This document shows positions 6,350 to 11,174 of a stretch of DNA of 64,000 nucleotides, in pieces; position 1 is the first letter of the stretch; every line of letters starts with the position of its first letter. Source of the DNA: Stackebrandtia endophytica. GTDB lineage: Bacteria; Actinomycetota; Actinomycetes; Mycobacteriales; Micromonosporaceae. The notes under the pieces were generated by a model that did no database searches, was not told the DNA's origin, and saw only the letters and a program-made list of their open reading frames with translations. Made by a program: the position numbers and the translations under genes. The stretch covers positions 124,001 through 188,000 of the forward strand of contig NZ_VFOW01000001.1 of NCBI RefSeq assembly GCF_006716355.1, given 5' to 3'.

Positions 6350-7684
6350 TTATCCGGCGGCCTGAACCTCGGCGATCGTCGAGATCAACTCGTTGTCACG
6401 GTCCCCCACGATGTCCCACACCATCATTCCGCCCAGCCCGTTGTCCACGGTGTACTGCGTCTTGATGGCCATGGTCTCGGGGACGTCATAGCTCCACCAC
6501 GTCGTGCCGTCGTAGTGGTAGGCCGCGACCGTCTCCTCGTCGATGAACGTGGTGCCCGGCAGATCCTTGACGACGCTGTAGTTCTCAGCGCTGCCGTCCG
6601 AACCGTCCGCGGGACCGGTACCGGTCTGGTACCGACCGTTGTCGACGTCGGGAACACCGGTCCAGCCTCGGGCGAAACTCGGAGCACCCAACACGATCTT
6701 GTCGGCCGGAGCGCCTTCGGCGATCATGTACTCGATACCGGCCGACGTGCTGTGACGATTCCACACGTATGGATTGTCATCGCTGTCGAACAGCTGCGCG
6801 TGATGGTTGGTGGTGAGGTTCTGATCGCTCCAGGCACCGTACATGTTGTAGCCCTGGATGGTGACGAAATCGGAGGCCGCGAAGACCGCCGGAATGTCGA
6901 ACCCGGCCTGATAACCGGATGAGTCCACATTGCCCGGAACCGTCGTGTTCAACGTGTAGTATTCACCGGTCTCGGCACCCAGGTCGTCGAGGGCGGCACG
7001 GAACTCCGTGTGCAGCGCGGCGAAGTCGTCGCGACTGTCGGCCTCCGGCCACTCCCAATCGATGTCGATGCCGTCGAAGATCCCGGCGCCGGTGCCCGGT
7101 CCACCGCGAGGCGTTCCGGTGTCACCACCGCCGTGACGCGTGATCGGCAGGTTGCCACGTAGAAACACGTCGATGCAGTTCTCGATGAACTCGGCGCGAA
7201 TCGTCGGATCTGCCGCCAGCGCCGCGAACGCGGCCCCGGCACCGTCGTCGCCGATACCGGCCCCACCACCCAGCGAAATGGTCACGTTGAGATCGGGGTG
7301 CAGCTGCTTGAGTTTCTTCAGCTGATGGAACTGACCCACGATCGGATCGTCGGCGGTGTCGGCGACACCGTCGACCGACTCCTCCGCCGACATCGCGTAG
7401 GTGTAGTCGCCCCAGTCCAACTGAGGCGAACAACCGCCCTCGGGTGTCACGTTCGCGAACGCGTACGCGAGGTGGGTGAGGTCCTCGGCGGCGCCACTCT
7501 CGTGGACGTCCTTGAGGTAGAAGTCGTTGGGGCCTCCGACGACGTTCCACCGGGCGTAATACGCGAGGTTGATGGGTTCGCCCGACTGGTCGACCGTGTC
7601 GGCGTTGGCCGATACGACCGCCAATCCGGTCGCGGCCAGCGTGGCCAACGCCGTTACGGTCCCCAATATCATTCGGCGCGTCAT
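6350..7684 (-). CDS. Secreted GH18 chitinase
   Basis: Endo- or exo-hydrolysis of beta-1,4-GlcNAc polymers outside the cell. The 444-residue product has a signal peptide (MTRRMILGTVTALATLAATG..., cleavage near SANA-DT) and a single GH18 barrel. The catalytic DxxDxDxE motif reads FDGIDIDWEWP with the acid Glu211 (codon 7054-7052). VTISLGGG matches the second GH18 signature and GGMMVWDIVGD the last barrel strand. No carbohydrate-binding module is attached. Start at ATG 7684 is set by GAGGAG 5 bases upstream; the open frame before it is noncoding. Likely works with the LPMO at the left edge of the window. Confidence 0.95.
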   Translation of the reverse strand: MTRRMILGTVTALATLAATGLAVVSANADTVDQSGEPINLAYYARWNVVGGPNDFYLKDVHESGAAEDLTHLAYAFANVTPEGGCSPQLDWGDYTYAMSAEESVDGVADTADDPIVGQFHQLKKLKQLHPDLNVTISLGGGAGIGDDGAGAAFAALAADPTIRAEFIENCIDVFLRGNLPITRHGGGDTGTPRGGPGTGAGIFDGIDIDWEWPEADSRDDFAALHTEFRAALDDLGAETGEYYTLNTTVPGNVDSSGYQAGFDIPAVFAASDFVTIQGYNMYGAWSDQNLTTNHHAQLFDSDDNPYVWNRHSTSAGIEYMIAEGAPADKIVLGAPSFARGWTGVPDVDNGRYQTGTGPADGSDGSAENYSVVKDLPGTTFIDEETVAAYHYDGTTWWSYDVPETMAIKTQYTVDNGLGGMMVWDIVGDRDNELISTIAEVQAAG

Positions 7685-7899
7685 ACACACTCCTCTTTGG
7701 GTGCCCACTGTGGAGACAGCAAGCACTAAGGTGTATTGGAATTCGTGCGCGCGAACAGATTGGGGCCAAGCGCGGCAAACGCTTATCTGCTCACCATCAG
7801 ACACCCTACACGCCGCCGCGCCACGACAAACAGCCTCGCGAGACGAGCGGAGGCCACCCGGGAGCCTCGATGGGAAGCGGTTGCCACTAGGTCGTAGGA

Positions 7900-8110
7900 G
7901 GGCCGCTCCCCCACGGGCGGGGAGCACTGACAGCCGTGACCAAATAGGACCTGGATATGAGGACCATCCCCGCGCAGGCGGGGAGCACCCGTATCAACTG
8001 GCACAACACCGGATACACCCAGGACCATCCCCGCGCAGGCGGGGAGCACCCGCCCGTCAGCGTGGCGACTGTCGCCCAGGCGGGACCATCCCCGCGCAGG
8101 CGGGGAGCAC
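7900..8110 (-). CRISPR. Short orphan type I-E CRISPR array (4 repeats, 3 spacers)
   Basis: Three identical 28-bp repeats at 7961-7988, 8022-8049 and 8083-8110 and one degenerate copy (7 mismatches) at 7900-7927. The three spacers are exactly 33 bp (7928-7960, 7989-8021, 8050-8082), giving the 61-bp period typical of type I-E. On the minus strand the repeat begins GTGCTCCCCGC and ends GGATGGTCC, the usual actinobacterial I-E form, so transcription is probably on the minus strand, with the leader above 8110 and the degenerate terminal repeat at the old end. No cas gene is in the window. Confidence 0.93.
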
Positions 8111-8485
8111 AAGGGCCGACCTGCGGCTCCGTCGGCGGACCGGCCGAATTCGCCGCATGATCACTTTCGAGCCCACTGTGGAGTTGTGTCAGCCTACGAT
8201 CTTGGTAGGCAAGCCTACGAGCAACGCCGCCAGACACGTGCCTGAGCGATGCGCAAACCGCCCGTCCAGACACGTGCAACGCCAGACGCGGACCGGCGCC
8301 GCCTACGTGCATTTTTGTAGGCAAGCCGGTCCACACCCACCGACGCGCCCGGCCAGGTGCGCGTATGGCAAGGCGCTCGCAGGCGCCGCCTACGGTTTTG
8401 GTAGGCAAGCCTACGAGCAACGCCGCCAGACACGTGCCTGAGCGATGCGCAAACCGCCCGTCCAGACACGTGCAACGCCAGACGC

Positions 8486-8528
8486 GGACCGGCGCCGCCT
8501 ACGTGCATTTTTGTAGGCAAGCCGGTCC
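8486..8528. other. Nested hairpin B of the 196-bp unit (representative copy)
   Basis: Outer arms GGACCGGC (8486-8493) and GCCGGTCC (8521-8528); asymmetric internal loop GCC/AA; inner arms GCCTAC (8497-8502) and GTAGGC (8513-8518); 10-base loop ending in a T-run. Other copies are at 8290-8332, 8682-8724 and 8878-8920. Confidence 0.85.
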
Positions 8529-8570
8529 ACACCCACCGACGCGCCCGGTCAGGTGCGCGTATGGCAAGGC

Positions 8571-8614
8571 GCTCGCAGGCGCCGCCTACGGTTTTGGTAG
8601 GCAAGCCTACGAGC
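8571..8614. other. Nested hairpin C of the 196-bp unit (representative copy)
   Basis: Outer arms GCTCGCAGGC (8571-8580) and GCCTACGAGC (8605-8614) with one mismatch; the same GCC/AA internal loop and the same inner GCCTAC/GTAGGC stem as hairpin B; 7-base loop GGTTTTG. Other copies are at 8375-8418, 8767-8810 and 8963-9006. A degenerate copy at 8192-8222 keeps the inner stem and changes only the loop. The inner GTAGGC can also pair with the adjacent GCCTAC (GTAGGC-AA-GCCTAC), so two folds exclude each other. Confidence 0.8.
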
Positions 8615-9039
8615 AACGCCGCCAGACACGTGCCTGAGCGATGCGCAAACCGCCCGTCCAGACACGTGCAACGCCAGACGCGGACCGGCGCCGCCTACGT
8701 GCATTTTTGTAGGCAAGCCGGTCCACACCCACCGACGCGCCCGGTCAGGTGCGCGTATGGCAAGGCGCTCGCAGGCGCCGCCTACGGTTTTGGTAGGCAA
8801 GCCTACGAGCAACGCCGCCAGACACGTGCCTGAGCGATGCGCAAACCGCCCGTCCAGACACGTGCAACGCCAGACGCGGACCGGCGCCGCCTACGTGCAT
8901 TTTTGTAGGCAAGCCGGTCCACACCCACCGACGCGCCCGGTCAGGTGCGCGTATGGCAAGGCGCTCGCAGGCGCCGCCTACGGTTTTGGTAGGCAAGCCT
9001 ACGAGCAACGCCGCCAGACACGTGCCTGAGCGATGCGCG

Positions 9040-10176
9040 TTAGAGGTGGCGGGAGATTACTAGGCGTTGTATCTGGTTGGTGCCTTCGACTATTTGGAGC
9101 ACCTTCGCTTCTCGGAAGTAGCGTTCTATCGGGTGGTCGGTGACGTAGCCGTATCCGCCGAGGACTTGTACCGCGTCGGTGGTCACCTTCATCACCGTGT
9201 CGGTGGCGAAGAGTTTCGCCTGGGCGGCTTCGCGGCTGAAGGGCCGTGCGGCGTCTTTGAGTCGGGCTGCGTGGAGGGTTAGTTGTCTGGCTGCGGCGAC
9301 TTGGGTGGCCATGTCGGCCAACATGAATCCGAGTCCTTGGAACTGGATGATCGGGCGTCCGAACTGTTCGCGTTCCTTGGCGTATTCGACCGCGTAGTCC
9401 AGGGCCGCTTGGGCGAGTCCTACTGCGCAGGCGGCGATGCCGAGGCGTCCGGAGTCGAGGGCGGCCATGGCGATGCGGAACCCGGTGCCTTCGTCGCCGA
9501 CCATCGCGTTTCGGTCGATGTGGGCATCGTCGAACACGATTTGGGCGGTGGGTGAGGAGTTGAGGCCCATCTTCTGTTCGAGGCGCTGGGGCAGTACTCC
9601 GGCGGTGTCGCCCGGCACGTGGAAGCAGGAGATTCCGCTGGCTCCTTCGCCCCCGGTGCGGGCGAACAGGGCGTAGAAGTCGGCGACTCCGGCGTGGGTG
9701 ATGAAGGCCTTGGTTCCGTTGACGACGTATTGGTCACCGTCGAGGGTGGCCTTGGTGGTCATGGCGACCGCGTCGGATCCACCGGCGGGTTCGGTGAGGC
9801 AGTAGCCGCCCAGCAGGTCGCCACCGAGCAGGCTGGGCAGCAGTTTCTCGCGTTGTTCGTCGGTGCCGGCCGTGGCGATGGGGAAGCATGCGAGGGTGTG
9901 CACGCTGACGGCTTCGGCGACGACGACCCAGCGGTAGGCCAGTTCTTCGAGGACTTGGAGGTATACCTCGTATGGTTGGCCTCCTCCCCCGACGGATTCG
10001 GGGTAGGGAAGTCCGAGGAATCCGGCTTGCCCGAGGGTGCGTAGGACTTCGCGGGGGAATTCGCTGCGGGCTTCGTAATCCGAGACGCGTGGGGCGAGTT
10101 CGGCGTCGGCGATCTGCCGGGCCAGGTCAATGATCGCTTCGGCTTCCTCGGAGGGCAGTATGCGTTGCACAGTCAT
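9040..10176 (-). CDS. Acyl-CoA dehydrogenase
   Basis: FAD-dependent alpha,beta-dehydrogenation of acyl-CoA. The 378-residue length is standard. Seen: the central YCLTEPAGGSDA motif with FITHAG (flavin/substrate binding), FGRPIIQFQGLGFMLADMA, and the C-terminal VLQIVEGTNQIQR where the Glu of VEGT is the catalytic base in short- and medium-chain family members. Chain length and pathway are undetermined; no other beta-oxidation or branched-chain catabolic gene is adjacent. ATG 10176 has GAGG about 10 bases upstream. The stop codon directly abuts the tandem hairpin array. Confidence 0.93.
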   Translation of the reverse strand: MTVQRILPSEEAEAIIDLARQIADAELAPRVSDYEARSEFPREVLRTLGQAGFLGLPYPESVGGGGQPYEVYLQVLEELAYRWVVVAEAVSVHTLACFPIATAGTDEQREKLLPSLLGGDLLGGYCLTEPAGGSDAVAMTTKATLDGDQYVVNGTKAFITHAGVADFYALFARTGGEGASGISCFHVPGDTAGVLPQRLEQKMGLNSSPTAQIVFDDAHIDRNAMVGDEGTGFRIAMAALDSGRLGIAACAVGLAQAALDYAVEYAKEREQFGRPIIQFQGLGFMLADMATQVAAARQLTLHAARLKDAARPFSREAAQAKLFATDTVMKVTTDAVQVLGGYGYVTDHPIERYFREAKVLQIVEGTNQIQRLVISRHL

Positions 10177-10265
10177 GAAGTCGATGCCTCGAAGTGTGGT
10201 GGATGGAGAGGTCTCGGCTGGAGCTTAACGGTTATTCAGGTCGTGGGTGTGGCAGGCTGACGAAC

Positions 10266-11174
10266 ATGCTGATGCTCGTTGACGCCCCCGGCCTGTGGTA
10301 CCGCGCCTTTTACGGCGTCCCCTCGTCGATGCGGGGCCCTGACGGTACTCAAATCAATGCGGTTCGGGGGTTCTGCGACGGCCTCTCCACGTTGATCCGC
10401 AACCAGCGCCCCACCGGCCTGGTGTGTGCGATCGACGCGAACTGGCGCCCGGATTGGCGGGTGGAGTTGTTGCCCTCGTATAAGGCTCATCGGGTCGCCG
10501 CGGACGGCGGCGAGGAGGAACCGGACGCATTGGGCCCGCAGGTCGAGATCATCATGGAGCTGCTGCGGTGCCTGGGCATCGCGACGGTGGGGTCGACCGG
10601 GTTCGAGGCCGATGACGTGTTGGCGACTCTGGCGGCCGGTCATGACGGCCCGGTCGAGGTGGTCACCGGCGATCGTGACCTCTTTCAGCTGGTCGACGAC
10701 GATCAACCGGTGCGGGTGATCTACATCGGCCGTGGCATCGCGAAGGCGGAGACCTATGACGAGGCGGCGGTGAGGCAGCGGTTCGGGGTCCGTGCCGACC
10801 AGTACGCCGATTTCGCGGTGCTGCGCGGCGACGCCTCTGATGGTCTGCCGGGTGTGAAGGGGGTCGGTGACAAGACGGCCGCCAAGTTGATCACCGAGTA
10901 CGGTGACCTGGCGACTCTACTGGGCGCCGCAGCCGATCCGGCCAGTTCGTTGACGCCTCGGGTGCGCGGTTCGCTCATCGATGCCGCCGATTACCTCGCG
11001 GTGGCGCCGAAGGTGGTGCGAACGGTCGCCGATGTGCCGGTGCCGAAGGTCGATACCGACCTGCCCGAGACGGTCGCCGATGAGGCGGGTCTGTCGGAGT
11101 TGACGCAGAAATACGGTTTGGCGAATCCGGTGACCCGGTTCGGCGAGGCGGTGGCGGAGAATCCGGCGACCTGA
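10266..11174 (+). CDS. 5'-3' exonuclease (PolA N-terminal-like, flap endonuclease superfamily)
   Basis: Stand-alone version of the DNA polymerase I 5'-nuclease domain, expected to remove RNA primers or flaps. The 302-residue product shows the metal-binding series: VDAPGLWYRAFYGV, SYKAHR, GFEADDVLATLA, VVTGDRDLFQLV, and the helix-hairpin-helix GVKGVGDKTAAKLI. Start chosen at ATG 10266 because CAGGCT lies 7 bases upstream (leaderless type) and homology begins there; an upstream ATG at 10194 adds non-homologous residues. Convergent with the RND gene across a shared terminator. Confidence 0.9.
   Translation: MLMLVDAPGLWYRAFYGVPSSMRGPDGTQINAVRGFCDGLSTLIRNQRPTGLVCAIDANWRPDWRVELLPSYKAHRVAADGGEEEPDALGPQVEIIMELLRCLGIATVGSTGFEADDVLATLAAGHDGPVEVVTGDRDLFQLVDDDQPVRVIYIGRGIAKAETYDEAAVRQRFGVRADQYADFAVLRGDASDGLPGVKGVGDKTAAKLITEYGDLATLLGAAADPASSLTPRVRGSLIDAADYLAVAPKVVRTVADVPVPKVDTDLPETVADEAGLSELTQKYGLANPVTRFGEAVAENPAT

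Follow-up and report, generated by a model that had tools for sequence, protein, structure and literature searches.

The locus lies in a window of Stackebrandtia endophytica DNA, the window being the whole stretch of 64,000 nucleotides that was analysed (NZ_VFOW01000001.1, positions 124,001 to 188,000). Near its left end, a tandem array of hairpins abuts the stop codon of an acyl-CoA dehydrogenase gene. The array contains four hairpins of a type B and four of a type C, together with a truncated C at its left edge. Hairpin B reads GGACCGGC-GCC-GCCTAC..GTAGGC-AA-GCCGGTCC and hairpin C reads GCTCGCAGGC-GCC-GCCTAC..GTAGGC-AA-GCCTACGAGC, the latter with one mismatch. The features are listed below in window coordinates, R3 being a covariance model described further on.

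8192-9038, plus strand: tandem array with a period of 196 bp, 4.3 copies and 99% match (Tandem Repeats Finder)
8192-8210, plus strand: truncated left-edge hairpin C, inner stem and loop (weak model match at 8180-8228, E 0.065)
8271-8351, plus strand: element core type B, copy 1, with its tip hairpin at 8290-8332 (model R3, 43.5 bits, E 1.7e-7)
8358-8436, plus strand: element core type C, copy 1 (model R3, 88.2 bits, E 1.4e-17)
8467-8547, plus strand: element core type B, copy 2 (model R3 search)
8554-8632, plus strand: element core type C, copy 2 (model R3 search)
8663-8743, plus strand: element core type B, copy 3 (model R3 search)
8750-8828, plus strand: element core type C, copy 3 (model R3 search)
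8859-8939, plus strand: element core type B, copy 4 (model R3 search)
8946-9024, plus strand: element core type C, copy 4, on the gene side (model R3; 9/10 pairs in the outer stem and 10/12 in the basal stem)
9040-10176, minus strand: acyl-CoA dehydrogenase gene (Pfam PF00441, PF02771, PF02770), stop codon at 9040-9042 abutting the array

Just left of the hairpin array, at 7899-8113, four repeats of about 28 nt with a 61-bp spacing (GGACCATCCCCGCGCAGGCGGGGAGCAC; repeat family D2) form a short CRISPR array, presumably of type I-E from its look. A glycosyl hydrolase family 18 gene (Pfam PF00704) is located on the left of both arrays, at 6350-7687 on the minus strand.

A sequence-only reading of this DNA had described B and C as hairpins with a common inner stem and internal loop and with different outer arms, one mismatch in C, and a left-edge copy that differs from C in loop bases only. 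All of this was seen again in our analysis. The same reading had taken the paired change of the arms as a covariation-like sign of selected structure. Since the copies in the window are near-identical and the two independent arm types amount to one comparison and not nine, the window alone is unable to show covariation.

We therefore looked at the copies present elsewhere. In the S. endophytica genome (5,663,490 bases, one contig), one unit gave 88 BLAST matches, which manual grouping reduced to 32 clusters; the window and 29 fetched stretches contain all of them (30 places, two of which hold two clusters). A register-aware scan of these places detected 86 tip hairpins, 69 of them distinct, once a false row at 133988 had been removed (87 to 86). 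Twenty further 20-kb stretches of the same genome contained two more, more distant members, both on the minus strand and one per replichore, meaning that 86 is a lower bound and that the polarity figures given below concern the type found by BLAST. For other genomes, we used covariance models. Model R1, built on the tips, matched in 5 of 200 family genomes including this one. Model R2, with a longer core, matched in 26 of 250 family genomes, which represent 12 of 44 genera (own included). Across the phylum it matched in 5 of 396 genomes: this genome, another from its class and three from different classes, of which one (G612) had two weak matches only. Model R3, which includes distant members, matched in 43 of 394 class genomes, spread over 20 of 138 genera (own included). 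These large searches scored 11-29 candidates per genome, so the copy numbers that they return are too low; with 150 candidates scored, 2 to 56 copies were detected in 14 of 16 genomes, most of which had been chosen for having matches. As a control, 80 loci fetched for relatives of the neighbouring gene (467 kb, some with short 3' flanks) contained no convincing element, with one weak match (E 0.048) inside the gene itself. A BLAST search of plasmids and phages with the window's unit gave no match, and a degenerate element pattern was found 0 times in viral contigs. The hairpins of the window belong to a large dispersed family present in several actinobacterial classes. The element had been proposed to be undescribed, and this agrees with our searches: no Rfam family covers it in the window (7000-10500) or in 15 further loci, and no description of the hairpin family was found among open-licence PubMed Central papers.

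The hairpins first seen in the window turned out to be only the tips of a larger fold, since pairing runs outward to about 100 nt per hairpin. From the outside inwards, this fold consists of a basal stem, an internal loop AAGGC/AACGC (also given as AAGGC/AACGCC), an outer stem, the internal loop GCC/AA, the inner stem and a loop. One copy is a near-palindrome of 100-200 nt with variable basal and outer stems. The AAGGC/AACGC loop is nearly fixed and is its most constant part, holding the letters most conserved across genera, and the GCC/AA loop is found in many copies, being missing or altered in part of them, mostly CTAG-ended palindromes. Three typed units of this genome's family folded better than their shuffled versions (z -7.4, -3.0 and -4.8), the first of them being a composite at -70.6 kcal/mol.

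Within the genome, the 69 distinct tips gave a covariation of 0.281, against a shuffled mean of 0.103 (0 of 500 shuffles as high) and at most 0.090 in slid controls. Covariation was strong in the outer stem, while the inner stem was nearly invariant; on one of the five measures, the number of pairs changed on both sides, there was no excess (8 against a shuffled mean of 7.6). In 28 chosen sequences that include the basal stems, the alternative basal stems compensate, with 23 of 28 pairs changed on both sides (16.8 in shuffles) and a score of 0.497 versus 0.168 shuffled and at most 0.107 slid. As an outside test, all 72 loci fetched from other genomes (71 distinct; 68 from outside the genus and 4 from the same genus) were aligned on sequence only. 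Both-side changes were found in 27 of the 28 pairs (shuffled mean 22.9), and covariation reached 0.602 versus 0.166 shuffled and at most 0.132 slid. In this set 84.9% of cells pair (basal stem 90.5%, outer stem 72.5%, inner stem 93.9%), two outer-stem positions are mostly unpaired, and the inner stem itself changes, for example to GTGTGC/GCACAC. A smaller set of 40 of these 72 loci, picked by eye and all from outside the genus, gave 26 of 28 pairs (19.7 shuffled) and a score of 0.569 versus 0.154; on it, RNAalifold found the basal stem, part of the outer stem and the inner stem unaided, with 19 of 21 pairs compensated. The two weak matches of genome G612 (L125 and L127) are in neither the 40-locus nor the 72-locus alignment. 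Because the copies were found by models built from related copies, the sample leans to structure, but the slid controls make chance implausible. Selection on the folded structure is thus well supported by these alignments, and so is the selected structure proposed from the window alone. The outcomes that would have spoken against it, a lack of homologous hairpins or arms varying with no compensation, were looked for and did not occur. A shape kept while its letters change points to a machinery that would read the shape.

Then, we looked at the position of the copies relative to genes. Of the 30 places in this genome, 24 have a right-hand gene antisense to the element. At 21 of the 30 the array directly adjoins a confident stop codon, and at the other 9 the junction has no such stop codon. 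The base before the abutted stop is C in 17 of 21 cases versus 117 of 336 genes. Of the 72 loci from other genomes, 56 have an antisense right-hand gene, and in 29 its stop codon is 6-20 nt away from the core. As judged by reading of the loci, copies that end in a CTAG-like sequence can have the abutting stop codon at either end. A copy follows the stop codon of rpsD in two genera, which also fits vertical inheritance for a function. At one locus, a tRNA-Gln gene (L042, 2015-2086) lies directly upstream of a hairpin array, in the tRNA's own sense, indicating attachment to a gene end and not to stop codons alone. At the gene-side end of loci L046 and L039, no stop codon was found at the junction, and the gene called in L046 overlaps with the array. 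In the left flanks of the arrays of L021, L025, L046 and L048, some units have a further small hairpin, CTGCCGAAGGCAG or a similar one, 5' of the long hairpin, with an A-run after it in L025 and L046. Tandem glycine riboswitch aptamers (RF00504) stand beside an element copy in L112 (1188-1402).

The copies of an array are not equal. The gene-side, 3'-most copy is intact at 30 of 30 places and distal copies are often decayed: an outer stem with at most 6 of its 10 pairs was found in 0 of 30 gene-side copies versus 12 of 56 other copies, and the basal stem keeps 9.9 of 12 pairs on the gene side versus 7.2 elsewhere (p 5e-7). Chimeric hairpins with unmatched arms occur among the copies that are not gene-side. 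This gradient fits either the insertion of new copies beside the gene or selection on the gene-side copy.

Which strand folds can be read from mismatches, as a folded strand tolerates G.T and not A.C. Counted on the strand antisense to the abutting gene, the basal stem has 108 G.T to 14 A.C in the 71 distinct loci of other genomes and 48 to 4 in the 40-locus set, these copies having been found by models that prefer G.T. In this genome the figures are 51 to 21 (p 0.0005); they come from 28 distinct gene-side copies that BLAST, and not the models, had detected and that fall into few basal types. Other counts are less clear or go the other way. The outer stems show a weak bias in the 71 loci (34 G.T versus 26 A.C), with 15 versus 18 in further counts and 5 versus 7 in this genome; the trend is reversed in the basal stems of a same-genus genome, G046 (8 copies, 4 G.T to 9 A.C); and all tips of this genome together give 26 G.T versus 76 A.C, a figure to which decayed copies and one column without true pairing contribute. 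Taken together, the counts suggest that folding concerns the strand antisense to the abutting gene. With the caveat of the model preference and of the few basal types, folding of the antisense strand speaks against a gene-sense RNA.

The arrays also have an orientation relative to replication. In this genome, dnaA lies at 3.017 Mb and the terminus was taken as its antipode; the GC skew is for the most part negative up to dnaA and positive past it, with a second change within the window or close to it. In 29 of 32 clusters the arrays have one and the same direction relative to the fork, and their orientation switches near dnaA and in the terminus region. The window's own array is one of the three exceptions, at about 53 kb from the dnaA antipode, where the replichore is uncertain. 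Among 336 genes called in 400 kb of the genome, 167 are leading-strand genes; since half of the genes are leading, gene bias does not explain the polarity (p about 1e-6). At 12 convergent gene pairs, the array abuts a stop codon in 9, and this is always the stop codon of the leading-strand gene (p 0.004). With positions computed from rounded genome lengths, four family genomes gave 13/17 (one contig of G009), 23/30, 16/20 and 11/13, together 63/80, and four other genomes were without polarity, with 4/5 and, among the matches listed, 4/10, 4/6 and 2/5, together 14/26. The apparent folding strand would correspond to the leading-strand template or the nascent lagging strand, and not to the lagging-strand template.

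Signs of mobility were found in this genome and in a relative. Identical copies of about 87 nt are present at 3.41 and 5.48 Mb of the S. endophytica genome, and likewise at 1.93 and 4.49 Mb. A Streptomyces-type relative of the element is carried by 59 plasmid records (58 Streptomyces and 1 Embleya), at up to 12 places in one of them. Two plasmids, NZ_CP108366 (L302) with the element and NZ_CP109439 (L305) without it, are 97.5% identical. The empty site in NZ_CP109439 is CTAG and includes the stop codon of a reading frame whose last residues are LRKLG in both plasmids; NZ_CP108366 has 165 extra nt between CTA and GGTCTG, with TA repeated and a single G added, and its stop is TAA instead of TAG. 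In a third plasmid, NZ_CP109481 (L306), the sequence diverges after CTAG. The copy concerned is of a Streptomyces sub-type whose terminal repeats are IS-like and which could be moved by an ordinary DDE transposase; no empty site was seen for the window's type of element. At the window's own locus, the lack of a convincing element in the 80 loci with relatives of the neighbouring gene fits a gain of the array; in the examples compared, the C-termini of these relatives exceed the one found here by one to several residues. No Y1_Tnp (PF01797) match was found in this genome, while the control search matched in 5 of 14 genomes. Between neighbouring arrays at 1.76 and 3.41 Mb, reading of the ORFs revealed no transposase or REPtron-like gene; these ORFs look like PhoH/PIN, MutY and cell-wall proteins.

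Altogether, the stop codons, the dispersal, the empty site of the relative and the polarity point to a mobile ssDNA element more than to an RNA gene, and mobility of the window's own type is inferred from them. The structured element proposed at the outset therefore stands as to its selected fold; it is refined to the whole hairpin of about 100 nt, in a setting that favours mobile ssDNA over an RNA gene. We hold it to be probable, by a little, that the hairpins are a non-autonomous, hairpin-shaped mobile element family of Actinomycetota, recognised as folded ssDNA by an enzyme. A protein would recognise the folded single strand via its conserved loops and would insert it beside stop codons during the single-stranded phase of the DNA around replication. 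Such an insertion might be tolerated because the stop codon is kept. Repeated insertion at one stop codon, together with tandem duplication, could then build the arrays, with the youngest member beside the gene. More tentatively, and with more doubt than belief, these features may belong to a new ssDNA transposition system, in which a non-Y1 enzyme would read the strand by its loops, insert it at stop codons in a fork-linked manner and stack new copies on the gene side, the core having come to lie in DDE terminal repeats in some lineages.

The main rival is an RNA element of 3' ends, transcribed with the gene, which would end or stabilise the mRNA or bind a regulatory protein, and which would have spread by duplication or gene conversion. 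We find it rather unlikely. It would account for the position beside stop codons in many genera and mainly in one orientation, for the gene-side copy being kept intact, and for the copies after rpsD in two genera and once after a tRNA-Gln gene. However, no U-tract of an intrinsic terminator follows the hairpin in the gene sense (T 0.12-0.31 per position, with hairpin ends that were estimated and are maybe over-extended), and the G.T excess of the basal stem lies on the antisense strand, with the exceptions given above for the outer stems, G046 and the count of all tips. An RNA also gives no reason for arrays to stand at leading-strand genes, when 29 of 32 clusters are polar and half of the sampled genes are leading, and the identical distant copies require a copying mechanism anyway.

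Alternatively, the copies might be ordinary MITEs, that is, palindromic leftovers of DDE insertion sequences with a TA or CTNA target, moved by their transposase, the core being only what makes a good palindrome. This is consistent with palindromes of about 200 bp that differ in their terminal repeats, have ends like CTAG and occur in each genome as many copies scoring equally, with the TA repeated at the empty site, and with the C that precedes the stop, which a CTNA target would explain. Yet MITE interiors would not be expected to share one internal loop and compensatory stems between genera with different terminal repeats, the polarity is left unexplained, and no parent IS was identified, the window's type being without such terminal repeats. 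We consider it improbable. A polar element for chromosome organisation or replication, like KOPS or ter sites, with its orientation under selection, would agree with an orientation that follows the replichores and switches near dnaA and in the terminus region, but it is hardly credible for a family that is patchy (26 of 250 family genomes), has 1 to at least 86 copies, attaches to stop codons, forms tandem arrays and lacks polarity in some carriers. Finally, correction of quasi-palindromes by template switching, with no selection on structure, would make arms complementary to place-specific ends beside the stop codon, as was read at many places, and is very improbable since it would erase the asymmetric internal loop AAGGC/AACGC, the most conserved part across genera.

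Whichever holds, the question of which protein reads the fold, as DNA or as RNA, becomes directly testable. A mobile element of this kind would have a way to insert beside genes without harm and to build tandem arrays, and an RNA would mean that actinobacteria commonly have a 3'-end structure that is so far undescribed.

Tandem arrays that are intergenic and beside stop codons are known in mycobacteria as MIRU/VNTR, like this actinobacterial array; to our knowledge, a conserved folded core is not part of the description of MIRU. MITEs resemble the Streptomyces-type members, which have terminal inverted repeats, a TA repeated at the target and many near-identical copies, so that these copies look like MITEs. 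Unlike MITEs, members with different ends have a common internal structure with compensatory changes, and the window's type has no such ends. Terminal inverted repeats and target duplication were seen at one Streptomyces locus and not for the window's type; a 44-nt Streptomyces-type end has many plasmid matches that seem to fall at the places of element copies, as judged without a row-by-row comparison.

IS200/IS605 elements, which also have non-autonomous derivatives, have two subterminal hairpins, and here the whole element is one hairpin. According to PMC6006769, these elements rely on hairpin recognition and have a replication-linked orientation, the IS608 type targeting the lagging-strand template. 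The orientation of the hairpin family likewise follows the fork (29/32; 63/80), but not in four other genomes (14/26, among the matches listed), and, unlike IS200/IS605, the genome has no match to a Y1 HUH transposase and the apparent folding strand is not the lagging-strand template. REP elements, with their GTAG and CGTC super-families and RAYT/TnpA-REP transposases, are described in PMC3733652 as palindromic, dispersed, mostly downstream of genes and thought to be mobile, and flanking ORFs often take their stop codon from them; the main text of that paper does not contain the words Actinobacteria, Streptomyces, Stackebrandtia or Micromonospora. Like them, the hairpin family is mostly downstream of coding regions. 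In contrast with REP elements of 20-40 bp, it measures 100-200 nt, with a core of 79 positions and 28 pairs in units of about 100 nt, and it has no GTAG or CGTC foot, its ends being mostly TTCGC or CGCGC, with GTAG inside the inner stem. It further differs by its conserved asymmetric internal loop or loops and by a genome without a Y1_Tnp match. Its position is REP-like, but its size, foot and transposase differ. By these comparisons, the element would work like a mobile palindrome of the REP/MITE type, yet we assign it to neither.
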